Positions 8,082 through 30,324 of a stretch of DNA of 64,000 bases are shown one piece after another. Each line of letters starts with the position of its first letter. Position 1 is the first letter of the stretch. This DNA comes from an uncultured Litoreibacter sp. (lineage in GTDB: Bacteria > Pseudomonadota > Alphaproteobacteria > Rhodobacterales > Rhodobacteraceae), in NCBI GenBank assembly GCA_947492995.1, contig CANLOU010000003.1, forward strand, positions 310,001 to 374,000, given 5' to 3'. The notes beneath the pieces are model-generated. The model did not search any database. It was not told the origin of the DNA and saw only the letters and a list, made by a program, of their open reading frames with translations. A program made the translations under genes and the position numbers.

Positions 8082-8087
8082 GAACAA

Positions 8088-10780: not shown

Positions 10781-10785
10781 CCCGC

Positions 10786-11442
10786 TCAGGTGTTCTGCGG
10801 GTAGCTGATGATCGACAGGTAGCGGGCTGGCAGTTTCACCAGCTTCTCGGGGCCATGCGGTGCATCGGCGTCAAAGAAAAGGGTGTCGCCCGATTTCAGC
10901 GAATGCACGTCATCGCCATGCCGGTACTCCACTTCGCCCTCCAGCATGTAGATCGTCTCGATCCCGCCATGTTGAAAGGTTGGAAACACGTCTGATTGCT
11001 CGTTGAGCGTGATGAGATATGGTTCCACGATCACGCCTGACGCGTTGGACCCGATATGGCCCAGCAATTTGTATTGGTGATTGGCGCGGGTGCCTTCACG
11101 GTCAATTTCCACGCCTTCGCCTGATCGCGTGTGAACCGCTTGGCGGCTTTCCTCGAACTGGCGGAAAAAGCTGGTCAGCGGCACGCTCAGGGCATTGGCC
11201 AGCGTCTGCAAAGTGGTGAGGGAGGGCGAGGTGTTGCCGTTTTCAATTTTTGACAGCATGCCGATGGATAGCCCGGTGATGCCGGCCAACTCCGCAACGG
11301 TGATTTCCTGCTGACGACGAAACGCGCGGACTTGACGGCCAATGGCCACCTCTAGGACTTTCTCGCGCTCCCCGTCCCGGACGCGGTGCGGGTCCTGTGT
11401 AAGTTTGCTAACCATATCAGGGCTCAATTTTTCAATGTTCAA
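10786..11442 (-). CDS. XRE-cupin transcriptional regulator
   Basis: One-component regulator of 218 residues: a lambda-repressor-like helix-turn-helix at about residues 34-88 (VAELAGITGLSIGMLSKIENGNTSPSL read in parts) and a C-terminal cupin sensor at about 145-210 with the YMLEGEVEYRHGDDVHSL and GDTLFFDADAPHG blocks. The reading frame begins at TTG 11442, which has AAAAGG upstream; ATG 11415 is an alternative start with a poorer ribosome site. It lies convergent to dmmC inside the methylamine island, so it likely controls dmm, mgs-gmaS-tmm, mgd or tmo genes. The ligand is unknown. Confidence 0.85.
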   Translation of the reverse strand: MNIEKLSPDMVSKLTQDPHRVRDGEREKVLEVAIGRQVRAFRRQQEITVAELAGITGLSIGMLSKIENGNTSPSLTTLQTLANALSVPLTSFFRQFEESRQAVHTRSGEGVEIDREGTRANHQYKLLGHIGSNASGVIVEPYLITLNEQSDVFPTFQHGGIETIYMLEGEVEYRHGDDVHSLKSGDTLFFDADAPHGPEKLVKLPARYLSIISYPQNT

Positions 11443-11510
11443 CTTGCTTGCCTTTTAACAGCTGCCATTTCAACGGCAATTCCAACTGGCCTTTAATGAG
11501 GTCCAGTATA

Positions 11511-11526
11511 GGGCAATTTTATTCCC
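11511..11526. promoter_or_regulatory. Possible autoregulatory element before the XRE-cupin gene
   Basis: GGGCAATTTTATTCCC in the 170-base gap upstream of the regulator resembles the reverse complement of the dmmD element (GGCAAATTATTTTCC). Weak on its own; noted because the same style of sequence occurs at the other methylamine promoters. Otherwise the gap holds nothing recognisable. Confidence 0.25.
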
Positions 11527-11612
11527 GTGAGGACAAAAAGAACGCCCAACAGTGAAAAAACTCCCAACACAGGGGAGTCTCTAGGAGAAGGCGCAGGCTC
11601 TGCGCGTCTCGC

Positions 11613-12179
11613 CTAAAGCGCTGACGCCATCGCTGTCGTGATCGCGTGATGAAGCGATCCGGCAGACGCCCGTGGGCCGAGAATGCGAATGAAGCTCTGC
11701 GGGTCGCCGCAAATGACAAAACACCCCAGATGATGAATTGACGTGCGGGTCGCGTCGCCGCCCGTCATGGCACGAATGTTGACGTTGCAAAGCAGCTCCA
11801 TCACCGGTCGTACATCATCGCCCGCCAGATCGAAGCCGCACCAGGCATCTGTCTGTTCGGTCACCGACGCCGCGTCTTTGAGCGTCGCCTTGACCTGCTC
11901 CGCCAAATCCTCATGCGTGGCGAAATCTGCGCCGATCATCCACTGGTCCGGCCCCATCCAAACGGCCGAAAATGGCTGTGCCAACAGCGCCTTGCCAGCG
12001 TCCGGCGGGGCGGCTTTCAAAACCGCCTTCAATGCTTTGGCGCAGGCCTTTTCCTTGCCCAACCGTGCCGCGACGGATGCCAGTGCCAGGTCGGTGATCT
12101 CGGTGCAGGTGACGCCTGCCACCTGATCCACGCGTGGCGCGGTGCCGCCAAGGGCGGTGATGGGTGTGAGACTATGCAC
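11613..12179 (-). CDS. mgdD: N-methylglutamate dehydrogenase subunit D (sarcosine oxidase gamma-type)
   Basis: Gamma subunit of a four-subunit sarcosine-oxidase-family enzyme, 188 residues, with a small GcvT-like fold and the LGPDQWMIG-like strand seen here as MGPDQWMIG and a DAWCGFDLAG segment. The GTG at 12179 was chosen because it overlaps the end of the alpha gene by 8 bases; the open frame upstream runs inside that gene. Fourth gene of mgdA-B-C-D. Gamma subunits contact the beta/alpha flavins and are poorly conserved, so the assignment rests mostly on position. Confidence 0.8.
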   Translation of the reverse strand: MHSLTPITALGGTAPRVDQVAGVTCTEITDLALASVAARLGKEKACAKALKAVLKAAPPDAGKALLAQPFSAVWMGPDQWMIGADFATHEDLAEQVKATLKDAASVTEQTDAWCGFDLAGDDVRPVMELLCNVNIRAMTGGDATRTSIHHLGCFVICGDPQSFIRILGPRASAGSLHHAITTAMASAL

Positions 12180-15117: not shown

Positions 15118-15398
15118 TTGGAGCGCCCCATTTTGCGCGCCACGTCGCGGGCGATTTCGACCTTGCTGATCTCGTGGGTCAGCGTGTTGCGGGTGATGAC
15201 GAGCCAGGACCGGTCGCCGCCCTCGTGCCACCACAGTTCGCGGTGGGTGCCTGCGGGGTTGTCGCGCAGATAGGCGTAGTCGTGCCAGTCCTGCGGGCTG
15301 GCCGTGTCGGGGTCGGGGCGGTCGATCATCGCGGCGTCGCCCAGATAGGTGAATTCGGCGCTGTCGCGCGGGCCCAGAATGGGATGATTGATAATCAT
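15114..15398 (-). CDS. mgdB: N-methylglutamate dehydrogenase subunit B (sarcosine oxidase delta-type, no zinc Cys)
   Basis: Delta subunit of 94 residues recognised by the EFTYLGDA, DYAYLRDNPAGTHRELWWHEGG and TRNTLTHEI blocks. In classic sarcosine oxidase delta, a CPxCG motif plus a His and a Cys bind zinc. Here the N terminus reads NHPILGPRD and the later site HEGGDR, so the cysteines are gone. That loss supports a specialised branch such as N-methylglutamate dehydrogenase. The ATG at 15398 is preceded by a weak ribosome site; the stop overlaps mgdC by four bases. Confidence 0.83.
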   Translation of the reverse strand: MIINHPILGPRDSAEFTYLGDAAMIDRPDPDTASPQDWHDYAYLRDNPAGTHRELWWHEGGDRSWLVITRNTLTHEISKVEIARDVARKMGRSK

Positions 15399-15458
15399 AG
15401 GTCGGAGCCTTTGAAGGGCGTTGCGATGTGAGTATTTTTGCCAAAACGAAACATGGTG

Positions 15459-16709
15459 TCAGTGCAGATTGGGCTGATTGCCCATCCCTTTTTCGTCGAT
15501 CATGTGGCCTGTCTCGAAACGGTTGAAGCGGTAGGCCGTGGCCGTTGGGTGCGGGGCGTCACGGGCCAGCAGATGCGCGAAGGCGTAGCCGGAGGCGGGC
15601 GTGGCCTTGAAGCCGCCATAGCACCAGCCGCCATTGAAATAGAGCCCGTCGATATGGGTGCGGTCGATGATGGGCGAGCCGTCCATCGACATGTCCATGA
15701 TGCCGCCCCACATCCGCAAAAGCCGCGCGCGGCCGATCATCGGCATGATCGCCATGCCGCCCTCGCAGACGTCTTCGACCACGGGCAGGTTGCCGCGCTG
15801 CGCGTAGGAGTTGTAGCCGTCGAGGTCACCGCCAAAAACCAAACCGCCTTTGTCGGATTGCGACACGTAGAAATGGCCTGCGCCGAAGGTGATGACCCCC
15901 GGCAGCACCGGCTTCAGCCCCTCGGACACAAAGGCCTGCAGCACGTGGCTTTCAATGGGCAGGCGCATGCCGGCTTTCGACATCAGCCGGCCCGACGACC
16001 CGGCGACCGCGCAGCCCACACGGTTCGCGCCGATGAAACCCTTGGAGGTTTCGACGCCGAGGCATTTGCCATTCTTGATCTTGAACCCCGTCACTTCGCA
16101 ATTCTGAATAATGTCGACGCCGCGGCTGTCGGCGGATCGCGCGTAGCCCCAGGCAACCGCGTCATGGCGTACGGTGCCGCCGCGCCGCTGGGCCAGCCCG
16201 CCCTTGATGGGGAAGCGGGCGTCGTTGAAATTGAGGAACGGGTATTCCTTTTTGATCTGGTCGAGGTCGAGATATTCCGCATCCGCCCCGTTCAGCATCA
16301 TCGCGTTGCCGCGCCGGATGAAGGCGTCGCGTTGGGCGTCTGAATGGATCAGGTTCATGATGCCACGTTGGGACACCATGGCGTTGTAGTTCAGGTCCTG
16401 CTCCAGCCCCTCCCACAGCTTGAGGGAAAACTCGTAGAACGGCTCGTTGCCGTCCAACAGGTAGTTGGAGCGGATGATCGTCGTGTTGCGCCCCACATTG
16501 CCGCCGCCGATCCAGCCTTTTTCGATGACGGCGACCTTTTTCTCGCCGTAGACCTTCGCCAGATAATGCGCTGTTGCCAGCCCGTGGCCGCCGCCGCCGA
16601 TGATGATGATGTCGTAATGGGGCTGGGGCTCAGGGTCGCGCCACGCGGGTGCCCACCCTTTGTGACCCGTCAGGGCCTCTTTGATTACCTTGAAGCCGGA
16701 GTAGCGCAT
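15459..16709 (-). CDS. mgdA: N-methylglutamate dehydrogenase subunit A (sarcosine oxidase beta-type)
   Basis: FAD/FMN subunit of 416 residues that oxidises the N-methyl amino acid. The FAD motif GGGGHG is at residues 38-43, followed by VIEKGWIGGGNVGRNTT. The RGGTVRHDAVAWGYAR block holds the His that in the family carries covalent FMN. ATG 16709 gives the usual family length; the frame upstream is not conserved-looking. First gene of mgdABCD, divergent from tmoX across a 291-base gap. Without the neighbours it would be annotated SoxB. Confidence 0.83.
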   Translation of the reverse strand: MRYSGFKVIKEALTGHKGWAPAWRDPEPQPHYDIIIIGGGGHGLATAHYLAKVYGEKKVAVIEKGWIGGGNVGRNTTIIRSNYLLDGNEPFYEFSLKLWEGLEQDLNYNAMVSQRGIMNLIHSDAQRDAFIRRGNAMMLNGADAEYLDLDQIKKEYPFLNFNDARFPIKGGLAQRRGGTVRHDAVAWGYARSADSRGVDIIQNCEVTGFKIKNGKCLGVETSKGFIGANRVGCAVAGSSGRLMSKAGMRLPIESHVLQAFVSEGLKPVLPGVITFGAGHFYVSQSDKGGLVFGGDLDGYNSYAQRGNLPVVEDVCEGGMAIMPMIGRARLLRMWGGIMDMSMDGSPIIDRTHIDGLYFNGGWCYGGFKATPASGYAFAHLLARDAPHPTATAYRFNRFETGHMIDEKGMGNQPNLH

Positions 16710-16824
16710 GACATCGAACCCTTTGTTGAGGGAGTGTCGCCCCTCAAACGCATCTCGTCGCCCTGAAACCCGACATTTCCTTGTTTGAATCGGACCCCGA
16801 GGCGCATTTTCAGGCAGGTTGCCA

Positions 16825-16878
16825 AAAATTATGACACGCCGCCACAAGAAAAAAACTTGATTGATAGGAAAATTATGA
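16825..16878. promoter_or_regulatory. Paired AT-rich elements between mgdA and tmoX
   Basis: The 10-base word AAAATTATGA occurs at 16825-16834 and again at 16869-16878, exactly 44 bases apart (about four helical turns). The second copy sits in TTGATTGATAGGAAAATTATGA, which matches 16 of 22 positions with the element before dmmD. Likely regulator sites for the divergent mgd and tmo operons. The rest of the 291-base gap shows no gene. Confidence 0.4.
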
Positions 16879-16976: not shown

Positions 16977-17945
<969 letters not shown>

Positions 17946-17971
17946 ACCGCCTAAAATTGGGTAACGACTTT

Positions 17972-18006
17972 CGCCCGCCCGAGGTTATGCTTCGGGCGGG
18001 CGTTTT
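17972..18006 (+). terminator. Terminator between tmoX and tmoW
   Basis: An 11-bp stem CGCCCGCCCGA / TCGGGCGGGCG with a 9-base loop is followed by TTTT. Lying inside the operon, it would let more binding protein than channel be made. Confidence 0.8.
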
Positions 18007-18045
18007 AAACACCGGACATGAAGTCGGTGAGGGGAGAGCACTAAG

Positions 18046-19062
18046 ATGACTGCCAACACTGTCATTTCCTGCAAGAACGTCTGGAAAATCTTTGGCAATA
18101 ACCCAGAGGCGTATCTGTCAAAGATGCCCGATGGGCATAGCTTCGACGACATTCGCAAAGACGGGTATATTGCGGGCGTCAAAGATGTCTCCATCGAGGT
18201 GTCTCGCGGAGAGATGCTGGTCATCATGGGGCTGTCTGGGTCTGGCAAATCGACGTTGGTGCGCTGCTTCTCGCGGCTGCACGACATCACCGGCGGCACC
18301 ATCGAGGTCGAGGGGCAAGACATCATGTCCCTGTCCGAGAAAGAGCTGATTGATCTGCGCCGCAACAAGATGGGGATGGTGTTTCAATCCTTCGGTCTGC
18401 TGCCGCACCGGACCGTTTTGGACAACGTGGCTTTCCCGCTGGAAATGCGTGGTCAGGACAAGCATGAACGCCGCGCACGGGCGCTGGAGGTTGTGAAACT
18501 TGTGGGCCTTGAAGGGCGCGAGGATTACTTCCCGCGCGAGCTGTCAGGTGGGCAACAGCAACGGGTTGGCATTGCGCGGTCGCTGGCGATTGAGCCTGAT
18601 ATTTGGTTCCTCGATGAGCCTTTCTCCGCACTTGATCCGCTGATCCGGCGCGAGATGCAGGACGAGTTCCTGCGGCTGCAAGAGCTGCTGGGCAAGACGA
18701 TTGTTTTCATCACTCACGACTTTGACGAAGCCCTGCGCCTTGCCGACCGGATCGCCATCATGAAGGACGGCGCGGTAGAACAATGCGACACGCCCGATCA
18801 AATCGTGTTGAACCCGGCCACCGAATATGTGCGCAAGTTTACTGAAGAAATCGACAAGGCTCGCGTCGTGCATGCGGGCGTGCTGGCCAAGGCGGACCTG
18901 AAGGCGACGGGCGATCCTGTGGACGCGAAAGCCTCTGTTCAAGACCTTGCGCGGCTGCTGGTGCAAGACAAACGCAAGACGATCCCCGTGGCGCGCGACG
19001 GCGCTGTGATTGGCGGGATGGATCGCGCCGAGGCGCTTGAAATTTTGTTGGAGGCGGGCTGA
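18046..19062 (+). CDS. tmoW: TMAO ABC transporter ATP-binding protein TmoW
   Basis: ProV/OpuAA-type ATPase of 338 residues on the cytoplasmic face. Walker A GLSGSGKST at 62-70, signature LSGGQQQRVGIARSLA, Walker B WFLDEPFSALDP and switch His in FITHDFDEALR are all intact. The C-terminal part from about residue 260 is a short CBS-like extension. The N terminus has about 40 residues (NPEAYLSKMPDG) before the first beta strand that is typical of betaine-type ATPases. The stop overlaps the tmoV start. Confidence 0.85.
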   Translation: MTANTVISCKNVWKIFGNNPEAYLSKMPDGHSFDDIRKDGYIAGVKDVSIEVSRGEMLVIMGLSGSGKSTLVRCFSRLHDITGGTIEVEGQDIMSLSEKELIDLRRNKMGMVFQSFGLLPHRTVLDNVAFPLEMRGQDKHERRARALEVVKLVGLEGREDYFPRELSGGQQQRVGIARSLAIEPDIWFLDEPFSALDPLIRREMQDEFLRLQELLGKTIVFITHDFDEALRLADRIAIMKDGAVEQCDTPDQIVLNPATEYVRKFTEEIDKARVVHAGVLAKADLKATGDPVDAKASVQDLARLLVQDKRKTIPVARDGAVIGGMDRAEALEILLEAG

Positions 19063-21044
19063 TGGCCGACGTCACCGACAGCTACCGGCCCGACCGCATG
19101 GCGGGGTTCAGCCGCACCCAATGGGCGCAGGTGCTGGTGGGCGTGGCGGTTGTTCTGACAGTCTTGCAATATACGGGTTTATTGCCCGCAGCCTTCCACC
19201 GTTTGCCGGAAGAATTGGTGCCCAATTTTGCGGGCTGGCTGGATGCAATTTTCAATTTTGTCAAAGATGACTTGGGCTTGCTGGCGCTGACGCGGTTGCT
19301 GACGGAAGGGTTGCAGTGGCTGCTGGATGTCACGGCGAACTTGCTGTTCGGCAAGCGCCGATGGCCCAATATCGGGCCGATCCCATGGACTGCGGTGGCG
19401 GCGGTTGCGGGTGTCGTTGGCTACTATTTGGGGGGCTGGCGCATGGCGCTTCTTGGCGCCGGCACCTTCATCTGGACCGCACTTATCGGCCAATGGACAA
19501 TCGCGATGGAGACGATGTCGGTTCTTGTCGTGGCCGCACCTTTGGCGTTCTTCATCGGTCTGGGCTTTGGCATTCTGGCATGGCGCAAACCTTGGGTGAA
19601 CCGCGCCATCAAACCGGTCCTGTCGGTGCTGCAAACCTTGCCGTTTTTCACCTACCTTTTGCCCGCCGTGATCTTCTTCAAAGTGGGCCCGACGGCGGGG
19701 GCTGTGGCCACCACGATCTATGCCATTCCGCCAATGATTTTGATGACCACGCTGGGCTTGCAAAAGGTCTCGCCCGAGGTCGTGGAGGCCGGCAATATGA
19801 GCGGCTGCACCCGCTGGCAATTGCTGCGCCATGTCTACCTGCCTTCGGCGCGAACCGAGATACTGGTGGGCGTCAATCAGGTCATCATGTTGTGCCTCGC
19901 GATGGTCGTTCTGACGGCCTTCATCGGCATGCCCGGATTGGGGGCAAAACTGCTGGCGATGATGGGCAGCTTCAAGCTGGGCAGATCGTTCGAGATTGGC
20001 ATCACAATCGTCTTGCTGGCCGTTATGTTGGACCGCATGTCGAAGGCCTGGGTGGTCAAACAACCCGAGCATTTTGAGAAGGGCACACCGTGGTGGAAAA
20101 AGCACTTCATGCTGCTGTTGGGCGTCGGGCTGTTCTTGTTCTTTGTGCTGCTGTCGCAATTCGTTCCCGAGGCGCAAGCCCTTGGACGCAGACAGAATTT
20201 TAGCCAGGGCAAGGAGCTGGACAACCTTATCAAAGGGTTCCTCAACATTGATGTGGTGAAGGCCACGACGGGGTTCCTGAGGGCCTTTGTGAACGTGCAG
20301 ATCCTGATCCCGTTCCGCAACTTCATGCTGTCGATTCCGACGCCTGCATTCATCTTGTTGGTGATCGCGTTTGCGCTGTGGCTGGGGGGTAAAAAGCAGG
20401 CGGTTTATGCGGGGGTTTTCTTCTCGCTGGTGGCGCTGTCTGGATGGTGGGATCGCTCTGTTATTACGCTGTATTCGGTGATCTCGGCGGTGGTGATTGC
20501 GATGATGATCGGGTTGCCGTTGGGCATCGTGGCGGCGCGGACGGAGAAGTGGTCGAAACGCATCCTGCTGGTCTGCGATACGGCGCAGACCTTTCCGAGT
20601 TTTGTCTATTTGATTCCGGCGATTATGCTGTTTGGGATCACGGATATTGCGGTGATTTTCTCGATCCTGATTTTCGCCATGGTGCCGCTGACGCGCTACA
20701 CGATTGAGGGGCTGCGGACCGTGCCCGTGGAGATGACTGAGGCGGCGGATATGGCGGGGGCGACGCGGATGCAAAAGCTGTGGAAAGTCCAGCTGCCATT
20801 GGCTTTGCCGACGATGGCGGTGGGGTTCAACCAAGCCATAATGTTCGCGTTTTTCATGGTGATTATCGCGGCCTTTATCGGCACGCAGGACCTTGGCCAG
20901 GAGCTGCAGCGGACCCTTGCGGGGACGGATATGGGCAAGAATTTTGTGCTTGGGATTTGTGTGGCGCTGATGGCGCTGACCTTTGATCTGACGATCCTGA
21001 AATGGGCGTCGGATCAGAAGAAAAAGCTGGGGCTGGGCGACTAG
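19062..21044 (+). CDS. tmoV: TMAO ABC transporter permease TmoV, two permease domains in one chain
   Basis: Inner-membrane permease of 660 residues holding two BPD_transp_1 units. The first EAA loop reads EAGNMSGCTRWQLLRHV in the N half and the second EAADMAGATRMQKLWKV in the C half, so one polypeptide supplies both halves of the channel. ProW-type betaine permeases have only one unit and act as dimers; the fused form is usual for TmoV. Third gene of tmoXWV; nothing downstream on this strand. Confidence 0.85.
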   Translation: MADVTDSYRPDRMAGFSRTQWAQVLVGVAVVLTVLQYTGLLPAAFHRLPEELVPNFAGWLDAIFNFVKDDLGLLALTRLLTEGLQWLLDVTANLLFGKRRWPNIGPIPWTAVAAVAGVVGYYLGGWRMALLGAGTFIWTALIGQWTIAMETMSVLVVAAPLAFFIGLGFGILAWRKPWVNRAIKPVLSVLQTLPFFTYLLPAVIFFKVGPTAGAVATTIYAIPPMILMTTLGLQKVSPEVVEAGNMSGCTRWQLLRHVYLPSARTEILVGVNQVIMLCLAMVVLTAFIGMPGLGAKLLAMMGSFKLGRSFEIGITIVLLAVMLDRMSKAWVVKQPEHFEKGTPWWKKHFMLLLGVGLFLFFVLLSQFVPEAQALGRRQNFSQGKELDNLIKGFLNIDVVKATTGFLRAFVNVQILIPFRNFMLSIPTPAFILLVIAFALWLGGKKQAVYAGVFFSLVALSGWWDRSVITLYSVISAVVIAMMIGLPLGIVAARTEKWSKRILLVCDTAQTFPSFVYLIPAIMLFGITDIAVIFSILIFAMVPLTRYTIEGLRTVPVEMTEAADMAGATRMQKLWKVQLPLALPTMAVGFNQAIMFAFFMVIIAAFIGTQDLGQELQRTLAGTDMGKNFVLGICVALMALTFDLTILKWASDQKKKLGLGD

Positions 21045-21300: not shown

Positions 21301-22134
21301 TCAGGTCAGCACAGAGACGCAATCGTCGAACCAGTCCCACGCCTTTCGGGCGCTGCTGTTGACCGTCAAAAAGACGCGGCGTTCGAACTCGATGGCGTGG
21401 TCGAGATGGTAGAGCCGCGCGCGCTTTAGTTTCGGGTTGGCGATGCGGTGCGGCAGGTAGGCGCTGCCGCCCGATTTCAGCAAATGTTGCAGCCCCAACT
21501 GGGCGCTGCTGAAGCTGAGCCGCGCGGTGTCTGCGTCGGCATAGGCGGCGGCATGGGCGCGGCCAAATTCCTCGCCCGCTTCGACATAGACATAGTTGGG
21601 ATCAAACGTGACGGGGCTGTCGGGCTGGCTTGAGACGAGGATCAGCCGGTCGGGGGGCAGTTCGATCTGCTCGTCGCGCGGGCCTGCGGCGGAGCGGTGG
21701 GTAAAGGCCAGATCGGATTTGCCTTGCGCGACCCAGCCCGCGATTTCCGTTTGGCTGCCCTGCCAGACCGAGATGGCGATGTGGGGGTAGTGCTGGCGCA
21801 GGTAGCTGAAGAAGCGCTCGCCAAGCGCGGGCCAGAGGTCGGTTTCACATGCGATGTTGCACACGGTGTTCAGCCCGTCGGGCAGGGCGGTTTCCTGTCG
21901 GGCCTGCCGCCACAGATCGGAGATGGTCAGCGCGTAGCGTTCGAGCCGGACGCCTGCGGGCGTTAGGGTCGCGCCGGACTTGTGGCGGTTAATCAGCGGC
22001 TGGCCCAGTTCTTCCTCTAAAGCCTTGAGGCGGGCGGTGACGGTGGATTGCGTGACGTTCAACACCTGAGACGCGCGCACGAGGCTGCCAGTGTCGATGA
22101 TGGCGAGGAAGGTTTGAAGTTCGGTATCGTTCAT
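21301..22134 (-). CDS. LysR-family regulator of the flavin-monooxygenase operon
   Basis: Protein of 277 residues with the LysR winged helix at the N terminus (ELQTFLAIIDTGSLVRASQVLNVTQSTVTARLKALEEELG read in parts) and a substrate-binding domain behind it. ATG 22134 puts the helix-turn-helix at the usual distance from the N terminus. It is divergent from the flavin reductase gene with a 95-base gap that contains two inverted repeats, the standard layout for a LysR activator and its target. Inducer unknown. Confidence 0.85.
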   Translation of the reverse strand: MNDTELQTFLAIIDTGSLVRASQVLNVTQSTVTARLKALEEELGQPLINRHKSGATLTPAGVRLERYALTISDLWRQARQETALPDGLNTVCNIACETDLWPALGERFFSYLRQHYPHIAISVWQGSQTEIAGWVAQGKSDLAFTHRSAAGPRDEQIELPPDRLILVSSQPDSPVTFDPNYVYVEAGEEFGRAHAAAYADADTARLSFSSAQLGLQHLLKSGGSAYLPHRIANPKLKRARLYHLDHAIEFERRVFLTVNSSARKAWDWFDDCVSVLT

Positions 22135-22143
22135 ATCCCATAA

Positions 22144-22205
22144 TTCGGATATTCCGAACTTAATGTCCAATATAATTCGTTATCGCGATGTAGGGAATCG
22201 CGATA
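22144..22205. promoter_or_regulatory. Two inverted repeats in the lysR / flavin reductase gap
   Basis: TTCGGATATTCCGAA at 22144-22158 is a near-perfect 15-base palindrome beside the lysR start. TATCGCGAT (22181-22189) and ATCGCGATA (22197-22205) form perfect 9-base arms with a 7-base spacer, about 25 bases before the flavin reductase start. Both are good candidates for LysR binding. Confidence 0.6.
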
Positions 22206-22229
22206 CCTTTCTCCAAAAGGAGAGCGCCA

Positions 22230-22727
22230 ATGGGACAGGATATTGCCAGCCGCGACGACTTTATCGCCGCCATGCGCTGCGTGGCCAGCAGCGTCAGCGT
22301 GGTCACCACGGACGGGGTTGCGGGGCGGCACGGGGCGACGGTGTCGGCGTTTTGTTCGGTCTCGGCGGACCCGCCGACGGCCTTGGTCTGTTTGAACACG
22401 TCGTCGAAAATCGCGCGGCTGGTACGCGAAAACGGGGCGTTCAAGTTGAACGTTTTGCCTGCGGGGGCATCGGATATCGCGGACCGCTTTGCGGGACGGC
22501 ATGACGCGCAGGTTGCGGACCGGTTTGAGGGCGTCAGCGTCTCGGGGCGGGTGCCGGGCCTGACGGGGGCCACGACCCTGTGCTGCACGCTGACCCAAGC
22601 GGTCGAGGCGGGCACGCATCTGGTCTGTATCGGCGAGGTCAACGAAGTTCAGGTGGGGGCGGATATGCCGCTGACCTATCTGGCGGGGCGGTATCATCCA
22701 TTGTCGAGCGAGGGAGTTGGAGCATGA
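22230..22727 (+). CDS. Flavin reductase domain protein
   Basis: HpaC-type NAD(P)H:flavin oxidoreductase of 165 residues, likely supplying reduced FMN or FAD to the luciferase-type monooxygenase three genes on. Flavin_Reduct blocks are seen: MRCVASSVSVVTTDG, GATVSAFCSVSADPPTALVCLN, FKLNVLP and the C-terminal LTYLAGRYHPL. It has AAAAGGAGAGCGCC before ATG 22230. First gene of a seven-gene operon; the stop overlaps the next start (ATGA). Confidence 0.85.
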   Translation: MGQDIASRDDFIAAMRCVASSVSVVTTDGVAGRHGATVSAFCSVSADPPTALVCLNTSSKIARLVRENGAFKLNVLPAGASDIADRFAGRHDAQVADRFEGVSVSGRVPGLTGATTLCCTLTQAVEAGTHLVCIGEVNEVQVGADMPLTYLAGRYHPLSSEGVGA

Positions 22728-24196
22728 GCATTGCACGCTATGAAATGCTGATCGACGGGGCCTGGGTTGGGGCGTCGGACGGCGGCACGTTTGAAAGCAT
22801 CAACCCCGCCACGGGCGCGGTTTGGGCAGTGATGCCGGAGGCCACAGCGGCGGATGTGGACCGCGCGGTGCGTGCGGCGGACGCGGCGTTGCAGGGCGCA
22901 TGGGGGCAGATGACGCCGACGGCGCGGGGCAAATGCCTGCGCCGGTTGGGCGATTTGATGGCCGCAAAGTCCGAGGATTTGGGGCGGGTGGAAACCACCG
23001 ACACCGGCAAGATGTTCAAGGAAACCGCGTGGCAGGCGACCTATATTGCGGAGTATTTCCATTTCTACGCAGGTGCCGCCGACAAGGTGCATGGCGACAC
23101 GCTGCCGATTGATAAGCCCGACATGTTTGTGTTCACCGACCGCGAGCCGATTGGCGTGGTGGCGGCTGTCATTCCGTGGAACAGCCAGATGTTTTTAACG
23201 GCTGTGAAGGTCGGCCCCGCGCTGGCGGCGGGCAACACGATGGTGCTGAAAGCGTCCGAGATGGCGTCGGCCCCGTTGCTGGAATTTGGCAAATTGATTG
23301 CCGAGGCGGGCATCCCCGACGGGGTGGTCAACATCGTGACCGGCGGCGGGGAGCCCTGCGGCAAGGCGCTGACCACCCATCCTTTGGTGGCCAAGATCGC
23401 GTTTACCGGCGGCCCGAATGCTGCGCGGCATATCGTGCGGAACTCTGCTGAGAATTTTGCTGAGGTCTCGCTGGAATTGGGCGGCAAGTCCCCGTTCATC
23501 GTGTTTGACGACGCCAATATCGAGAGCGCGGTCAATGGATCCGTCGCGGGGATATTTGGGGCCACCGGGCAAAGCTGCGTGGCGGGGTCCCGGCTGTATC
23601 TGCATGAAGATATTGCGGATGAATTCCTGGAGCGGATGGTGGGGATTGCGTCCAACATCGTGATTGGCGACCCGCAGGCGGAGGCCACCGAGATGGGGCC
23701 GCTCTGCACCCAAGGGCAGATGGACCATATCGAGCGGCAGGTGGCGCGGGCCTTGGAGCAGGGCGGCAAAGTGCTGCATGGCGGCAAACGCTTGGCGGGG
23801 GAGGGCCTGTATTTCGAGCCGACCATCATCGACTGCCCGCGTCAGGACATGGAGATCGTGGATACGGAACTGTTCGGTCCCGTATTATCCGTGCAGCGGT
23901 TCCGGACCGAGGACGAGGTGGTGGCGCTGGCTAATGACACCAAACACGGGCTGGCGGCGGGGATCTTTACGCGGGACTCGGCGCGCTCGGTGCGGATGTC
24001 GAAGCGGGTGAAGGCGGGGATTGTGTGGGTGAACACGTATCGCGCCATCTCGCCGATTGCGGAGTTTGGGGGGATGAAGACCTCGGGCTACGGGCGCGAG
24101 GCGGGGATGCAGGCGGTCTACAGCTACACGCGGCCCAAAACAGTGTGGATGAACCTGTCGGATGACCCGATTGCCAACCCTTTCAAGATGAGGTGA
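22724..24196 (+). CDS. Aldehyde dehydrogenase
   Basis: NAD(P)-dependent aldehyde dehydrogenase of 490 residues. The catalytic Glu lies in SLELGGKSPFIVFDD and the catalytic Cys in ATGQSCVAGSRLYL; the oxyanion Asn region reads VIPWNSQMF. ATG 22724 overlaps the flavin reductase stop. The open frame extends further upstream but would overlap that gene. The substrate aldehyde is unknown; it presumably comes from the monooxygenase or hydrolase reactions of the same operon. Confidence 0.88.
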   Translation: MSIARYEMLIDGAWVGASDGGTFESINPATGAVWAVMPEATAADVDRAVRAADAALQGAWGQMTPTARGKCLRRLGDLMAAKSEDLGRVETTDTGKMFKETAWQATYIAEYFHFYAGAADKVHGDTLPIDKPDMFVFTDREPIGVVAAVIPWNSQMFLTAVKVGPALAAGNTMVLKASEMASAPLLEFGKLIAEAGIPDGVVNIVTGGGEPCGKALTTHPLVAKIAFTGGPNAARHIVRNSAENFAEVSLELGGKSPFIVFDDANIESAVNGSVAGIFGATGQSCVAGSRLYLHEDIADEFLERMVGIASNIVIGDPQAEATEMGPLCTQGQMDHIERQVARALEQGGKVLHGGKRLAGEGLYFEPTIIDCPRQDMEIVDTELFGPVLSVQRFRTEDEVVALANDTKHGLAAGIFTRDSARSVRMSKRVKAGIVWVNTYRAISPIAEFGGMKTSGYGREAGMQAVYSYTRPKTVWMNLSDDPIANPFKMR

Positions 24197-24200
24197 GGTG

Positions 24201-25232
24201 ATGAAGTTTCATTTAGCAGTGAATTTGGAGCGCATGGACGCAGGCACCTGCATGATGGCGGTGCGCGACCACACGTTGGAATTGGTGCAGATGGCCGACA
24301 AGGCCGGGTTCGAAGTGGCGTGGGCCGCCGAACACCACGCGCTGGAGATGACCATTGCGCCCAACCCGTTTCAGCTGATGACATGGTGGGCGGACCATAC
24401 GGAGCGCATCCGCGTGGGCTGCGGCGTGGCGAATGCCGCGTATTGGCACCCGATCAACCTGGCGGGCGAGGCCGCGATGGTGGACCTGCTGTCGGGCGGG
24501 CGGCTGGAACTGGGGCTGGGCTCGGGCGCGTATCAGCGCGAGTTTGACCGGATGCACCCGGGGCTGCCGCAGCCCGAGAGCTACAAGTTTTTGCAGGAGA
24601 TGCTGCCGCTGGTCCGCGAGCTGTGGAAGGGCGACGTCGAACATAATGGCGACAAGTGGCAATTCCCCAAATCGACGTCTTGCCCCAAGCCGGTGCAGGA
24701 CGAGGTGCCGATGTGGGTGGCGGCGCGCTCGCCCATTACGTTTGACTATGCGGTGGAAAACGACTGCAACATCATGTGCTGGCCGCTGACCATGCCGTTT
24801 TCGGAAGCGGAGAAATACCGCGGCCAGCTGGACGAGAGCATTGCCAAGGCGGGCGGCTGGACCGGGACCTTTGCCCTGATGCGGCACACGTCGGTCTATG
24901 ACAACGAGGACGACCGCGCGGCCACCATGGGCGCGATCCGCAACGTGCTGGGGCAGTTCGGCAACCTGATGATGAAGAAAGGTGACGTGGTGAACGGGTT
25001 CCCCGACCGCGTGCCGCTGGAAGAGCTGGAAGGCAATGTGCGGGTGGAGCCTGCCATGTTGGAGGAGAACCTGATGTTCGGCTCGCCTGAGACGGTGATT
25101 TCCAAGCTGAAAGCCTATGAAAAACTGGGCGTGGACGCCTTTATTTACTACGCCTCTATGGGGTTGGATATGGAGGTGCAGAAGCGCTCCATGCGCCTCT
25201 TTATCAATGAAGTTATGCCGGAGTTTGCCTGA
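24201..25232 (+). CDS. Luciferase-like flavin-dependent monooxygenase (LLM class)
   Basis: Bacterial-luciferase-fold oxygenase of 343 residues, expected to use reduced flavin from the first gene of the operon. Visible family blocks: EVAWAAEHHALEMTIAPNPFQL (in parts), RIRVGCGVANAAYWHPINLAGEAAMVD, and GGRLELGLGSGAYQREFDRM. Of two possible starts, ATG 24201 follows GAGGTG. Such two-component systems open N-heterocycles or cleave C-S, C-N or C-P bonds in other bacteria; the substrate here is not revealed. It is coupled to the DUF1185 gene by a one-base overlap. Confidence 0.85.
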   Translation: MKFHLAVNLERMDAGTCMMAVRDHTLELVQMADKAGFEVAWAAEHHALEMTIAPNPFQLMTWWADHTERIRVGCGVANAAYWHPINLAGEAAMVDLLSGGRLELGLGSGAYQREFDRMHPGLPQPESYKFLQEMLPLVRELWKGDVEHNGDKWQFPKSTSCPKPVQDEVPMWVAARSPITFDYAVENDCNIMCWPLTMPFSEAEKYRGQLDESIAKAGGWTGTFALMRHTSVYDNEDDRAATMGAIRNVLGQFGNLMMKKGDVVNGFPDRVPLEELEGNVRVEPAMLEENLMFGSPETVISKLKAYEKLGVDAFIYYASMGLDMEVQKRSMRLFINEVMPEFA

Positions 25233-25828
25233 TGCCTGTCGAGATACGCCGTACCATTTTGAACATCCAAGACACCCATATCGAGGGGTGGAAGAAGGTC
25301 GAGGTGCCGACCAAGCTGGTCAGCGCCATGGCGATCATCAAGAACCCGTGGTTCGGGCGGGGCCATGTTGAGAACCTGCGGCCCGAGATTATGGAGCATG
25401 GGCCGGAGCTGGGGCAGCTGCTGACGGATATGATTTTGGGCGTCACTGGTGACGCCTTGGAGGGTTACGGCAAGGCGTCCGTGGTTGGCATGGGCGGCGA
25501 GATCGAGCACGCGCAGGCGCTGACCCACACGCTGTGGTTTGGCAACAAGTTCCGCGAGGCGGTGAACGCGCAGACCTATCTGGTGTTTTCAAACACGCGC
25601 GGGGCGGCGGGGTGCTCGCTGATGATCCCGTTGATGCACAAAGAAGATGGCGGGCTGCGCTCGCATTACCAGACCATCCATGTGTCCGTGCAGGACGCGC
25701 CTGCGGAGGACGAGATTATCGTGGCCTTGGGGGCCTCTGTGGGCGGGCATCCCAACCACCGGATCGGCAACCGCTATCAGGACCTCAAAGAGATGGGCCA
25801 TGACGTGGACAACCCCGCGGGTGTCTGA
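25232..25828 (+). CDS. DUF1185 (so-called amino acid synthesis family) protein
   Basis: Protein of 198 residues of the PF06684 family, recognised from RRTILNIQDTHIEGW at the N terminus, VGMGGEIEHAQALTHTLWFGNKFREAV, and ALGASVGGHPNHRIGNR near the end. The family name amino acid synthesis is historical and no biosynthetic role should be read from it. No classic catalytic motif is visible. Conserved pairing with a luciferase-type monooxygenase suggests an isomerase or hydrolase acting on its product; this is inference. Confidence 0.75.
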   Translation: MPVEIRRTILNIQDTHIEGWKKVEVPTKLVSAMAIIKNPWFGRGHVENLRPEIMEHGPELGQLLTDMILGVTGDALEGYGKASVVGMGGEIEHAQALTHTLWFGNKFREAVNAQTYLVFSNTRGAAGCSLMIPLMHKEDGGLRSHYQTIHVSVQDAPAEDEIIVALGASVGGHPNHRIGNRYQDLKEMGHDVDNPAGV

Positions 25829-26612
25829 GCGCGCCCCAGACGGGACGGCTTTTGAGGTCTTGGGGCCTGAGGACGGCACGCGGGTTGTTTTGATCCACGG
25901 GCTGGGGCTGTCGCGGCAATTATGGGAGGCGCATCTGCCCGCCTTCGCGGGCCACCGGGTGCTTCTATATGATCTGTATGGCCACGGGGAGAGTGCGCCA
26001 CCGCCCGAGGCTGCCTCGCTGACGGTGTTTTCCGACCAGATCGCCGCGTTGATGGACCATGTGGGATGGGCGGACGCGCATATCGTGGGCTTCTCCATCG
26101 GGGGGATGATTAACCGCCGCTTTGCGTTGGATTTCCGCGCGCGGGTGCGGTCGCTGGTGATTTTGAACTCGCCGCATGACCGGGGGGACGCGGCGCAGGC
26201 TGCTGTGGAGGCGCGGGCGCAATCGGTGCGGGATCAAGGCGCGTTCTCCACTTTTGACGCCGCGCTGAAACGATGGTTCACGCCGGGATATTTAGAGAAC
26301 AGTGATGGTGGGGCGTTGGTGCGTCATTGGCGGGGGCAGGTGGATGCCGAGAGCTATGCGCAGACGGCCTGGGTTCTGGCGCATGGCGTGCGGGAGCTGA
26401 TTGCGCCAATTCCCGCTGTGGATGTGCCAACGCTGGTGATGACCTGCGAGAAGGACAGCGGGTCGACGCCTGCGATGAGCGAGGGCATTGCGGCGGAGAT
26501 TGCGGGGGCGGAGCTGGTGATTGTGCCGGAGTTGCAGCATTTGGGGCTGATGGAACGGCCAGAGCTGTTTGCGGCGCGGGTCGTCGCGTTTTTGGAAAGG
26601 GTTGAACGATGA
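25800..26612 (+). CDS. Alpha/beta hydrolase
   Basis: Hydrolase of 270 residues. Oxyanion segment LIHGLGLSRQLW near residue 30, nucleophile elbow G-F-S-I-G-G, a late acid in TCEKDSG and catalytic His in LQHLGLMERPELF. It resembles 3-oxoadipate enol-lactonase-type enzymes, a common fate for ring-cleavage lactones. Start uncertain: ATG 25800 (with AAGAGATGG upstream) overlaps DUF1185 by 29 bases, GTG 25821 is the other choice. The stop overlaps the next start (ATGA). Confidence 0.82.
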   Translation: MTWTTPRVSERAPDGTAFEVLGPEDGTRVVLIHGLGLSRQLWEAHLPAFAGHRVLLYDLYGHGESAPPPEAASLTVFSDQIAALMDHVGWADAHIVGFSIGGMINRRFALDFRARVRSLVILNSPHDRGDAAQAAVEARAQSVRDQGAFSTFDAALKRWFTPGYLENSDGGALVRHWRGQVDAESYAQTAWVLAHGVRELIAPIPAVDVPTLVMTCEKDSGSTPAMSEGIAAEIAGAELVIVPELQHLGLMERPELFAARVVAFLERVER

Positions 26613-28297
26613 GCACTGTGATGAGCGGCGGGCAGGCGGCGATTGAGGCGTTGCAGGCGGAGGAGACCAGCCACGTGTTCGGGCTGATCGGATCGGCCAC
26701 GATGGAGATGTTTGACGCTTTATATGACGCGGAGGGGATTTCGTTTGTGGGCGTGCATGACGAGCGCACGGGGACCCATATGGCGGACGGGTTTGCGCGG
26801 GCCTCGGGCAAGGCGGGCGTGATATTGGCGGGGCAGAACGGGCCCGGGGCCACCAATCTGGTGACGGGATTGAGCCAGGCGATGGCGGCGTTCTCGCCGG
26901 TGGTGTCAATTGCGGGGGCCTTGTCCTCGGGCCATGTGTACCGCGACGCGTTCCAGGAGGTAGACCAGCAATCGCTGTTTACGCCGGTGACCAAGAAGAC
27001 CTGGACCGCGCCGTCGGCCGAGCGGGTGCCGGAGCTGTTTCGCGAAGCGTTTCGCACTGCCTTGTCGCCGCGCATGGGGCCGGTGCAACTGAACCTGCCG
27101 CGTGACGTGTTGGCCGCGCAGGCAGAGTTTGACCCGATGCAGGCGCCATCCGGCTACCGCAATATGTCGCTGCCGGCGGGGCATCCGGACCATATTGCCA
27201 AGGCGGCTGCGATGCTGGCGGGCGCGGAGCGGCCGGTGATTGTGGCCGGTGGCGGGATCAAGACCACCGGCGGGCATGAGGCGGCCTTGGCGCTGGCGGA
27301 GGCGCTGGGGTGCCCGGTGGTGACCTCCCCCGGGCATGGCGACGCGGTCCCGTTCGGGCATCCGCTGAATGCGGGGCAGATGGGGCCGCGTGGCAACGCG
27401 GTGGCGTCGCGGCTGGTGAAAGAGGCGGATGTCATTCTGGCGCTGGGGACCCGGCTGGGGTTCAACGCCACGTTCTACACCTATGACAACATCAACCGCG
27501 CGGCGCAGATCATTCAGATCGAGCTGGAGCCGACCGCCATCGGGCGGTTTTTCCCGGTGGCGCTGGGCATCTGGGCGGATGCGCCTTTGGCGGCGGGGCA
27601 GATCACGGAGGCCTTGGGCGCGATGGCGCAGCGGGGTGCGGCGGAGGCCTGGACGGCTGCGTTTCAGGCGGAGCGGCAGGCGTTTTTGGCGCAGCGCGAC
27701 GTGGACGCGATTGAGACGGGGCCGACGCAGCCCTCGGGGCTGTTCAAGGCGCTCAGGGGCGTGCTGCCAAGGGACGCGGCGATCACCATGGATGCGGGGA
27801 CGCTGTGCTTGCAGGCCACGGATGCGCTAAATTACTGGACGCCGAAATCGCTGTTTACGCCGCTGGATTTCGGGCTGGTGGGCTTTTCGTTTGCCTGCGG
27901 CTTGGGGGTGAAATGCGCGCAGCCGGACCGGCCCGTGGTCAGCCTGATGGGCGACGGGGGGTTCGGGATGACCGTGTCGGAGCTGTCGACGGCGGTGGAT
28001 CATGGGATCAACACCGTCACCGTGGTGATGAACAACGCATGCTGGGGGGCGGAGAAAGCGTATCAGCGCGACTTCTTCAACGGGCGCTATATCGGGGCGG
28101 ACGTGTCGAGCCCCGACTTTGCCAAGCTGGCGGATTTATACGGGGCCAAGGGCTACCGCGCCGACACATTGGCGGAGGTTGCGCCCGCGATCGAGGCGGC
28201 GCTGGCCTGCGGCAAACCGGCGGTGGTGGACGTGGCGGTGGACCCGAACGCGCTGTACTCGTTCCGGCGCGACAGCTTCAAGCACAGGGGCGGGTGA
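26609..28297 (+). CDS. Thiamine-diphosphate enzyme, sulfoacetaldehyde acetyltransferase-like
   Basis: ThDP enzyme of 562 residues with three domains. The activating Glu is in GVHDERTGTHMADGFARASG; QNGPGATNLVTG and FQEVDQQSLF follow; the cofactor motif starts GDGGFGMTVSEL and ends NNACWGAEK. The WGAEKAYQRDFFNGRYIGAD block resembles sulfoacetaldehyde acetyltransferase (Xsc) more than acetolactate synthase. It is not a standard Xsc: the N terminus is short and it sits in a monooxygenase operon instead of beside pta. It may split a C2 or larger aldehyde or keto acid made by this operon. Confidence 0.8.
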   Translation: MSTVMSGGQAAIEALQAEETSHVFGLIGSATMEMFDALYDAEGISFVGVHDERTGTHMADGFARASGKAGVILAGQNGPGATNLVTGLSQAMAAFSPVVSIAGALSSGHVYRDAFQEVDQQSLFTPVTKKTWTAPSAERVPELFREAFRTALSPRMGPVQLNLPRDVLAAQAEFDPMQAPSGYRNMSLPAGHPDHIAKAAAMLAGAERPVIVAGGGIKTTGGHEAALALAEALGCPVVTSPGHGDAVPFGHPLNAGQMGPRGNAVASRLVKEADVILALGTRLGFNATFYTYDNINRAAQIIQIELEPTAIGRFFPVALGIWADAPLAAGQITEALGAMAQRGAAEAWTAAFQAERQAFLAQRDVDAIETGPTQPSGLFKALRGVLPRDAAITMDAGTLCLQATDALNYWTPKSLFTPLDFGLVGFSFACGLGVKCAQPDRPVVSLMGDGGFGMTVSELSTAVDHGINTVTVVMNNACWGAEKAYQRDFFNGRYIGADVSSPDFAKLADLYGAKGYRADTLAEVAPAIEAALACGKPAVVDVAVDPNALYSFRRDSFKHRGG

Positions 28298-28632
28298 TGA
28301 TTACGCGGTATGCCATTTTCGGGGGCACGGTGACGCCGGGCCAAGAGGCCGCGATGCGGGACTGGGTGACGGCGCATTTGACGCCGCTGTGGCGCAAGTT
28401 TGCCTGCGCCGAGGAGGTGCGGGTGCTGTTCGGGGTGGAGCAGGACGCGGACGGGCCGACCATCCCGCTGATCCTGGCGATCACCTATGCCGACCGCGAC
28501 GCCATGGCCAAGGGCGTGGACAGCCCGGCGCGCCACGCCGCGAAAGACCTGCTGCCGGAGCTATACGCGCGGTTCTACGACGAGGTGGCGCTGTGGCACT
28601 ACGTGATGGACCGCGAGCAGTATTTCGACTGA
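28297..28632 (+). CDS. Small dimeric alpha/beta-barrel protein, function unknown
   Basis: Protein of 111 residues, start overlapping the ThDP enzyme stop. The pattern of two beta-alpha-beta units (RYAIFGGTVTPGQEAAMRDWV ... PLILAITYADRDAMAKGVDSPARH, read in parts) and a late ALWHYVMD strand fits an EthD- or DUF-type ferredoxin-like barrel. I do not recognise the exact family. Proteins of this fold in catabolic operons are often isomerases or heme-free monooxygenase helpers. Last gene of the operon; it ends two bases from the convergent GntR gene. Confidence 0.6.
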   Translation: MITRYAIFGGTVTPGQEAAMRDWVTAHLTPLWRKFACAEEVRVLFGVEQDADGPTIPLILAITYADRDAMAKGVDSPARHAAKDLLPELYARFYDEVALWHYVMDREQYFD

Positions 28633-28634: not shown

Positions 28635-29312
28635 CTAAAGGCTGTTGAGGTGGTGCTTGCGCAGCAGCTGGATCAGCATTTCCTTGGCCGCCGTGCGGTG
28701 GACGTGGTGCATGCGGTGGGCCGTTTTGGCGTCGCCCTGGCGGATGGCTGCAAGAAGCTTGCGGTGGTCCTCGTTGGAGCGGGTTGGCAGCGGGCGCATG
28801 TGCAGCGTCACCAGCCGCGCGCGGCGCACCTGATCTGACAGCATGCCGACAATGGATTGCACCCGCGAATTGTTGCCCAGCCGGACGAGTTCGTGGTGAA
28901 ACGCGTCATCTGCCTGCGCCCAGGCGTCGAGGTCGTTTTGGCGCAGCGCGCGGTCCATCTCGTCGACGGTCACGCTGAGGCGTGACAATTCGGTGTCGCT
29001 ATACCCGGCCCGCGCGGCATTGGCGGCGGCGAGGCTCTCCAGCTCGGTCAGAATGTCATAGATCTCCGTCATGTCGGCGGGCGAGAGCGGTTTGATGCGG
29101 ACGCCCTTGCGGGGGCGGACATCGACCAGCCCTTGCCCCTCCAGCACCAGCAGGGCCTCACGCACGGGCGTGCGGGACATGCCCAGCGCCTCGGCAAGCT
29201 CGCTTTCCAGATGGTCGGTGCCTGCTCCAAGTTTGCCCGTGAATATCTGCGACCGGAGCTGTTCAACGGCGGCGGCGGAGCTGGATTGCGTCTTAGGGGC
29301 ACTGGTCATCAT
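28635..29312 (-). CDS. GntR-family (FadR/FCD subgroup) regulator
   Basis: Protein of 225 residues: N-terminal winged helix with LRSQIFTGKLGAG, ESELAEALGMSRTPVREAL and VRPRKGVRI, and a C-terminal all-helical FCD ligand domain with DAFHHELVRLGNN and a HRTAAKEM tail supplying metal-binding histidines. ATG 29312 was preferred to an upstream in-frame start inside the oxidoreductase stop region. It ends a TAXI-TRAP operon four bases after the Gfo/Idh gene and likely senses the imported acid. Confidence 0.85.
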   Translation of the reverse strand: MMTSAPKTQSSSAAAVEQLRSQIFTGKLGAGTDHLESELAEALGMSRTPVREALLVLEGQGLVDVRPRKGVRIKPLSPADMTEIYDILTELESLAAANAARAGYSDTELSRLSVTVDEMDRALRQNDLDAWAQADDAFHHELVRLGNNSRVQSIVGMLSDQVRRARLVTLHMRPLPTRSNEDHRKLLAAIRQGDAKTAHRMHHVHRTAAKEMLIQLLRKHHLNSL

Positions 29313-29316
29313 GTGG

Positions 29317-30324
29317 CTAAATCTCCACTTTGCACTTGTTTTGGGACGAAGAGTATATGGCCTGCTCAATTTGGATCACAGTAAGATATTCCTGTACTGA
29401 ATTTTCAAACGGTGCGCCGCTGACAATCGCGTCAGCAACATGGGCCTGCAGGGCGTAGGTGCAATCGCCCCCAAAATTGGGGCTGGTATCGGGTGGCAGA
29501 ACCTCGGTGGCAGCCACGGCGCCAAAGCTGCGCAGATGGACGGAGCCGTCGCCGTGAAGGGTCAGCGTCCCTTTGGTGCCCTCAAAGAGGCCTTCGCCCA
29601 TCGTGCACCGCGTATTGGCCGCCGCGTGGTCGAGGTTGCGATTGCCATCAAACACCACGCGCACCCCGCCGGGGTGGTCGAACAGAACAAAGCCTGCGTC
29701 CTCGCCTGCAATCACCGGGTTGACCTGCCGCAAGTCGGCGTAGACGGCTTGGGGATCGCCAAACAGGTAGCGGAACGTATCGACGTAATGCACGCCCGTT
29801 TCATGGATCAAGAAGCGCGGCATCTTCTGAAAATAGGGCTGGCGCGCCAGATAGGCCTGTGGCCCCTGACCGTCGCCCGGACGCAGGCGGAACGTGGCCT
29901 GCAAGACCTGCCCGATGGCCCCGCCCGCGATTTGCGCGTGGATGGCGCGAAACCATGGCTGGAAGCGAAAATTCTCGTGGATGACCAGCGGCACATCGGC
30001 CTTGGCGGCCAAGGCGGCCATCTGTTGTGCCTCCTCAAGGGAGGTGCAGAACGGCTTTTGGCAAATGATCGCCTTGAGCGGGTGTTTCAGGGCCGTGCGG
30101 ATGGCGTCGGCATGGCCTTCGGGGGAGACGATAATGTCCAGAATATCGGGCTGGGCCTGCGCCAGCATGTCAGCCAGCGTGTCGAAGACGGGCAGGCCGG
30201 TGGCCTCGGCCTTGGCCCGGTCGCGGTTGGTGACGCCGACCAGCTGCGTGTCGGGGATGCGCCGCCACCCGTCGAAATGGAACTGGCTGAAATAGCCTGC
30301 GCCGATGCAGGCGACTTTTAGCAT
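29317..30324 (-). CDS. Gfo/Idh/MocA-family NAD(P)-dependent oxidoreductase
   Basis: Dehydrogenase of 335 residues. Rossmann motif IGAGYFSQFHFDGW at the N terminus, an EKP-like CQKPFCTSLEEA catalytic block near residue 95, and the HETGVHYVDTFRYLFG block of the C-terminal sheet. ATG 30324 overlaps the previous gene by seven bases. Members oxidise sugars, inositols or sugar acids. With a TRAP transporter and an isopropylmalate-dehydrogenase homologue in the same operon, a hydroxy-acid or sugar-acid substrate is plausible. Confidence 0.82.
   Translation of the reverse strand: MLKVACIGAGYFSQFHFDGWRRIPDTQLVGVTNRDRAKAEATGLPVFDTLADMLAQAQPDILDIIVSPEGHADAIRTALKHPLKAIICQKPFCTSLEEAQQMAALAAKADVPLVIHENFRFQPWFRAIHAQIAGGAIGQVLQATFRLRPGDGQGPQAYLARQPYFQKMPRFLIHETGVHYVDTFRYLFGDPQAVYADLRQVNPVIAGEDAGFVLFDHPGGVRVVFDGNRNLDHAAANTRCTMGEGLFEGTKGTLTLHGDGSVHLRSFGAVAATEVLPPDTSPNFGGDCTYALQAHVADAIVSGAPFENSVQEYLTVIQIEQAIYSSSQNKCKVEI

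Follow-up and report, generated by a model that had tools for sequence, protein, structure and literature searches.

A probable trigonelline-type ring-opening operon with an added ThDP enzyme in an uncultured Litoreibacter

Trigonelline gene sets and the Litoreibacter operon

Plants produce trigonelline, a compound with a nitrogen-containing ring, and the chemistry of its degradation pathway was reportedly set out in Perchat 2018. Here, we examine a seven-gene operon of an uncultured Litoreibacter sp. (assembly GCA_947492995.1, contig CANLOU010000003.1, positions 310,001 to 374,000 of the forward strand; this whole stretch of 64,000 nucleotides is the window, and coordinates are counted from its first letter), for which the closest described systems are the trigonelline (tgn) clusters. 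According to an excerpt of PMC7913881, TgnF of Acinetobacter baylyi, a DUF1185 homologue, stimulates TgnE in the trigonelline pathway. We found a flavin reductase (FR), a luciferase-like (LLM) oxygenase, an aldehyde dehydrogenase (ALDH), an alpha/beta hydrolase (ABH) and a DUF1185 protein all together at loci of Acinetobacter, S. meliloti pSymA and R. johnstonii. Specifically, the A. baumannii record has the order GntR-DUF1185-ABH-FR-LLM-ALDH, followed by NCS1 and porin genes (both assigned by eye) and a second ALDH gene, and S. meliloti 2011 pSymA carries the five-family set plus an SSADH-like ALDH, about 3-15 kb from nifB, nifA and fixABCX (by eye). From their genus and location, we take the A. 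baumannii and S. meliloti loci to degrade trigonelline; neither record is A. baylyi ADP1, the Acinetobacter loci came from plasmid records, and an AceR-model search for an Acinetobacter genome gave no match in 349 genomes.

The operon occupies 22230-28632, with coordinates and gene order verified in the window sequence. Its seven genes lie contiguously on the + strand, and every junction is an overlap or a 4-base gap, bearing out the coupled row that an earlier note had described from the letters of this DNA. The FR gene (22230-22727, PF01613) overlaps the ALDH gene (22724-24196, PF00171) by 4 bases, and a gap of 4 bases follows before the LLM oxygenase gene (24201-25232, PF00296), with the ATG at 24201 taken as its start. 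By 1 base the latter overlaps a DUF1185/AA_synth gene of the TgnF family (25232-25828; PF06684, 195 bits), which in turn overlaps the ABH gene (25800-26612, PF00561) by 29 bases, the ATG at 25800 being taken as the ABH start. Overlaps of 4 bases and 1 base then join ABH to an Xsc-like thiamine diphosphate (ThDP) enzyme that we do not consider to be Xsc (26609-28297, three ThDP Pfam domains), and the ThDP gene to that of a small protein of predicted dimeric alpha+beta barrel (DABB) type fold (28297-28632, AlphaFold2 and Foldseek). In tgn terms, FR, LLM, ALDH and ABH presumably fill TgnA-, TgnB-, TgnC- and TgnD-like roles, respectively.

As in the Acinetobacter and S. meliloti pSymA tgn loci, Pfam identifies a flavin reductase and LLM oxygenase pair in the operon, and ALDH, a serine ABH and DUF1185 share the cluster with the LLM. 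Because TgnF is a DUF1185 homologue (excerpt of PMC7913881) and those loci carry the five families, the core is the known trigonelline set, and the earlier view of the LLM/DUF1185 core as lying outside the recognised pathways was wrong. Unlike tgn, the window operon has an LLM of another clade (about 37% identity to trigonelline-type LLMs) and a LysR instead of a GntR regulator, and it adds the ThDP enzyme and the DABB protein. We read the operon, with a probability of roughly 0.7, as the basis of a trigonelline-type pathway that opens the ring of an N-methylated pyridinium betaine, or of a similar N-heterocyclic betaine, by oxidation; its clade is not that of the trigonelline operons. The pathway steps derive from homology and from trigonelline chemistry; families, residues, clade, co-occurrence and neighbours were computed here. 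What would be new is a separate clade of trigonelline-type ring-opening operon, mostly in marine taxa by label, with a ThDP add-on; the core set is known.

Oxygenase clades and conservation of the gene set

The LLM tree was built by a quick method with a midpoint root, on 127 rows left from 144 after removal of those more than 90% alike (simple ungapped comparison); L129 is a long branch of unsure placement. Separate branches were obtained for the trigonelline type (30 rows, SH-aLRT 100), a third type (6 rows, 99) made up of A. fabrum, R. etli, Thalassospira and relatives, and the window clade (90 rows, 100), placing the window LLM outside the Acinetobacter/S. meliloti clade with SH-aLRT 100 for each of these two branches under the quick method. 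The third-type operons (A. fabrum pAt, R. etli, Thalassospira) share the FR-ALDH-LLM-ABH order and a nearby ABC transporter with the window, but their LLMs are 42-45% identical to the window's (three loci), they feature a helix-turn-helix regulator of about 600 residues, a CMD gene and, in A. fabrum, NIPSNAP, and the stretches examined are without a ThDP enzyme.

Window-type LLMs form a derived branch within their clade (73 rows, support 100), and the basal rows are apparently paraphyletic. At most basal loci, ALDH and LLM share their direction with carnitine-type genes, and the genes for RidA, hydrolase, CoA-transferase and DUF1185 run divergently from them; L175 and L182 hold the carnitine set only in part, and L181 stands among the basal rows yet has the window-type order LysR-FR-ALDH-LLM-DUF1185-ABH. 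On plasmid pW43B of Parasedimentitalea marina, a family III CoA-transferase is fused to a flavin reductase domain (L156:7031-9151), which ties the CoA-transferase to the LLM. Furthermore, carnitine-type genes and DUF1185-ABH-ThDP occur together at L169, and the carnitine-type and ThDP wirings may therefore be one evolving pathway. Among the seven operon genes, Pfam found neither carnitine dehydrogenase nor BKACE; the genome encodes BKACE relatives at other sites (best 55% identical).

Gene content was counted at 62 of 80 named loci, namely those with enough flanking sequence; the 80 were kept from 163 places found with LLM relatives, and the counts are lower bounds because score thresholds were applied. 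ABH was present in at least 56 of the 62, ALDH in at least 51, DUF1185 in at least 47, a divergent LysR in at least 45, ThDP in at least 41, FR in at least 24 and the small barrel gene in at least 16, with the exact seven-gene order in at least 6. This conserved association of genes around the LLM is more than chance. Many relatives (L036, L039, L051 and others) showed no flavin reductase gene in the interval from LysR to ALDH, so the reductase may come from elsewhere. Judged by record label, roseobacters, SAR116, Planktomarina and further lineages carry the window-clade LLM. Orthologous LLMs are also seen in metagenome-assembled genomes labelled Acidimicrobiales/Acidimicrobiaceae, another phylum (L059, L063, L067, L076, L088, L095, L100-L103), which would reflect transfer or binning error.

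We surveyed 295 Rhodobacteraceae genomes, 78 of which had an LLM match at E<=1e-60. An LLM at least 59% identical to the window's was found in 29 of the 295 (31 places), and most of the others among the 78 stood at 35-39%. In the Litoreibacter assembly, the operon's LLM and DUF1185 proteins are the sole matches to PF00296 and PF06684. Near-invariant columns common to all clades were found in LLM, ALDH, ABH and DUF1185. In ALDH, C285, E251 and N153, which we take to be the usual catalytic residues, lie in columns conserved at 97% or more, and S99 and H247 are conserved in ABH. E90, H93 and R177 of the DUF1185 protein are likewise conserved and match the cavity residues Glu90, His93 and an Arg given for the DUF1185 protein BB2672 in an excerpt of PMC2954203, with equivalence judged by eye.

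The best models for the ThDP enzyme are sulfoacetaldehyde acetyltransferases, at 414.1 bits against a cut-off of 676.4 (TIGR03457) and 425 against 620. Xsc is the best-scoring family and shares the conserved Glu and GDG/NN motif (E52, GDG 448-450 and NN 475-476; conservation of 97% or more across 52 sequences), but the operon enzyme stays under the model cut-off and is 31% identical to a separate 930-bit Xsc elsewhere in the genome; by these measures it is not Xsc. At about 67% identity or more, the enzyme occurs in 14 of the 295 genomes, 13 of which also have a window-clade LLM and one of which, G253, does not (Fisher p = 6e-14, overstated as the genomes are related). The conserved co-occurrence of LLM, DUF1185 and ThDP enzyme, proposed as a check in the earlier note, was found across related loci, with the limit that the ThDP enzyme is missing at this threshold from 16 of the 29 genomes with the LLM, a number of which are incomplete assemblies; the ThDP step is therefore optional, as a downstream or alternative branch. 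A ThDP subfamily 44-47% identical to it (L185-L192) has different gene surroundings in other Rhodobacteraceae.

No Pfam model matched the small protein, and its AlphaFold2 model (mean pLDDT 95.3, alignment of 20 sequences) has EthD, 4-methylmuconolactone methylisomerase, polyketide cyclase, NIPSNAP and similar barrel proteins as best Foldseek matches, which predicts a DABB type fold. NIPSNAP and DUF1330 genes, whose products have the same kind of fold, adjoin a number of trigonelline-type operons. A second small-barrel copy, about 40-44% identical, lies off the operon at L032:19177-19506, adjoining a dehydrogenase-like gene.

Regulatory region and methylated-amine neighbourhood

The divergent LysR-type regulator reported beside the operon is encoded at 21301-22134 on the - strand (PF00126 and PF03466), and both inverted repeats described earlier, the AATTCGGATATTCCGAAC dyad and the TATCGCGAT repeat, are present in the intergenic region (22135-22229). 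We rejected the TATCGCGAT repeat as a conserved operator: searched as ATCGCGAT, the pair recurred in 0 of 28 other extractable LysR-FR intergenic regions, leaving the window's own as the only case (1/29). What does recur in these regions is an AATTCG...TTCGAA-like dyad with a downstream ATTCG (by eye, unscored). Directly after the operon, a GntR/FCD regulator gene (28638-29333) is convergent with it; among NCBIfam models it scores best with a phosphonate regulator, though under that model's cut-off.

Upstream, model matches delimit a methylated-amine island (607-16847) with a gmaS-like (glutamine-synthetase-like) gene at 607-1929, mgsC (glutamate-synthase-like) at 1998-3341, an mgsA-like (amidotransferase-like) gene at 4041-4967, an ammonium transporter gene at 5173-6573, DmmA-like and haem N-demethylase-like genes at 8730-10777, and sarcosine-oxidase-like, probable mgd, genes at 12175-16847. 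The mgd label follows from the sarcosine-oxidase-like relatives that adjoin mgs-gmaS at L201, one of nine fetched mgs regions. The alpha-like protein (12175-15441) has about 115 N-terminal residues beyond the soxA model match, possibly a fused delta subunit, and some 20 bases separate its gene from the beta-like one. In layout, the island is similar to the R. pomeroyi cluster SPO1548-1588 (excerpt of PMC13390433). Between island and LysR gene lies a betaine/choline-type ABC transporter (17001-21044, + strand; proV and choline-permease models), the binding protein of which matches PDB 4xz6 at E=1.1e-187. We take 4xz6 to be the TMAO-binding TmoX of R. pomeroyi (TMAO, trimethylamine N-oxide); the transporter was set aside as an importer of the operon's substrate and probably belongs to the amine island. 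Betaine-type ABC genes adjoin the operon in some relatives.

The N-methylglutamate genes linked to the window operon are thus gmaS-like, mgs and probable mgd genes. Across the surveyed genomes, mgsC was present in 23 of the 29 with a window-clade LLM, in 33 of 49 with a second, mainly trigonelline-type LLM group, and in 39 of 217 with neither (G043 is counted in both LLM groups, and G092, of the third type, is left out). Both LLM groups are therefore associated with methylamine/N-methylglutamate metabolism, which is what N-methylated substrates would predict for each. Stretches around L075, L078, L094, L096, L168 and L173 contain mgs genes, and those of L172 and L174 a gmaS-like gene.

Ureohydrolase, TauD, Rieske and MttB genes are further recurrent neighbours, seen in a few lineages that are in part related Roseovarius. 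Arginase-family ureohydrolase genes are found near the operon at L074, L077, L078, L094, L099, L064 (by eye), L169, L177 and L179, with an ADI/DDAH-family gene also at L074. A Rieske oxygenase gene stands between ALDH and LLM at L058:8883-10001, L105, L108 and L175, and MttB-family methyltransferase genes lie near L090, L095, L097, L049 (by eye) and L117, a trigonelline-type locus.

Proposed pathway, candidate substrates and rival readings

In the proposed pathway, FR would supply reduced flavin to the LLM, which would place oxygen on the ring carbon beside the charged nitrogen, so that the ring opens and yields an N-formyl enamine aldehyde; ALDH would convert the aldehyde to an acid, and ABH, aided by DUF1185, would remove formate and amine. 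Methylamine or N-methylglutamate would then enter GmaS-Mgs-Mgd, encoded some 5-20 kb upstream. The ThDP enzyme and small barrel protein would be an optional clade-specific add-on, most likely cleaving or decarboxylating the remaining carbonyl acid. The sequence of two-component LLM oxygenation, N-heterocycle opening, hydrolysis and aldehyde oxidation suggested in the earlier note agrees with the evidence, and that note's interpretation as a whole is supported in part.

Tentatively, and at a little under even odds, homarine (N-methylpicolinate) is the likeliest single substrate. By analogy with trigonelline chemistry, C5-C6 cleavage, oxidation and formate loss would lead from homarine to an N-methylglutamate skeleton. 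Mgd takes part in homarine catabolism according to an excerpt of PMC13390433, which parallels the probable mgd genes of the window, and an excerpt of PMC12817926 reports that R. pomeroyi quickly depletes homarine in diatom medium. Genome G680 has one LLM of the window clade (66%), its next-best match reaching only 29%. We take G680 to be R. pomeroyi (100% identity to the SPO0826 stretch), and circumstantially this homarine drawdown, as excerpted, together with the organism's window-clade LLM favours homarine. A test in Heal 2021 of whether R. pomeroyi grows on homarine and trigonelline was removed by its authors (PMC10134881) and is not used here, and the excerpts of the homarine, trigonelline and DUF1185 literature searched contained no homarine gene sequences.

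Several observations weigh against the ring-opening reading or its homarine form. With only about 37% identity between the window LLM and the trigonelline clade, the substrate class could have changed, and SSADH and an NCS1/BCCT transporter, which several trigonelline-type loci have, are not among the seven genes. The sister subtype that includes R. pomeroyi is wired to CoA-transferase, enoyl-CoA hydratase, carnitine-dehydrogenase-like and BKACE genes, and the LLM cluster of G680 itself contains carnitine-type genes, for which a simple homarine route has no need. The existence of a third LLM type also counts against homarine. The ThDP enzyme, absent from those 16 of 29 LLM genomes, has no obvious job in homarine chemistry; mgsC is missing from 6 of the 29 at the threshold used; and mgd is a guess as a label, given adjacency to mgs-gmaS in only one of nine mgs regions. 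Finally, the ureohydrolases near several relatives lack an explanation in the ring-opening scheme.

PMC13390433 cites a 2026 homarine paper (Nat Microbiol). A homarine operon with the gene set homABCDER has reportedly been published. That the window clade is this operon, and hence already known, is possible with the odds somewhat against it: the role of Mgd (excerpt of PMC13390433) and the homarine drawdown by R. pomeroyi (excerpt of PMC12817926), with its window-clade LLM, agree with it, but the type-3 operons of A. fabrum, R. etli and Thalassospira are also candidates. It is unlikely that the LLM instead cleaves the C-N bond of an acyclic quaternary amine (gamma-butyrobetaine/carnitine type) to give trimethylamine and an aldehyde for ALDH, with no ring involved. 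The co-directed ALDH-LLM-CaiD-LcdH of the sister subtype and the adjoining amine island with its probable TMAO transporter would suit such a reaction, but it leaves hydrolase, DUF1185 and RidA unexplained, hydrolase and DUF1185 being common to trigonelline-type loci, and the LcdH-like protein of L156 scores 305.5 against a carnitine dehydrogenase cut-off of 414. RidA, of an enamine/imine deaminase family, accompanies the LLM in the neighbouring subtype and was counted for ring opening.

Desulfonation by the LLM followed by an Xsc-like conversion to acetyl phosphate is very improbable. Xsc models do give the best ThDP matches, and a TauD-family gene cluster lies near five relatives (one Pfam-checked), but the ThDP score (414 bits against 676) and the separate Xsc, 31% identical, led us to reject this reading; the LLM matches SsuD and SfnG models weakly, and Pfam and NCBIfam models recognise a sulfonate gene in 0 of the 7 operon genes. 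The sulfonate route via Xsc in the earlier note is accordingly not supported. A Rut pyrimidine pathway was also rejected, with the RutF model under its cut-off and RutA structures matching weakly. Within the preferred ring-opening reading, a more specific conjunction is rather doubtful, namely that the substrate is a marine N-methyl heterocyclic betaine without assigned catabolic genes and that the ThDP enzyme would carry out a new reaction of Xsc type, attacking an alpha-amino (not alpha-sulfo) carbonyl and expelling the amine to leave an acyl phosphate or acid.

Homarine and other N-methylated pyridinium betaines serve as osmolytes in the sea, and their turnover by bacteria is only beginning to be tied to genes. 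The window clade provides a concrete gene set, physically linked in the window to methylamine/N-methylglutamate metabolism, and its ThDP enzyme, nearly restricted to genomes with a window-clade LLM, is directly assayable.
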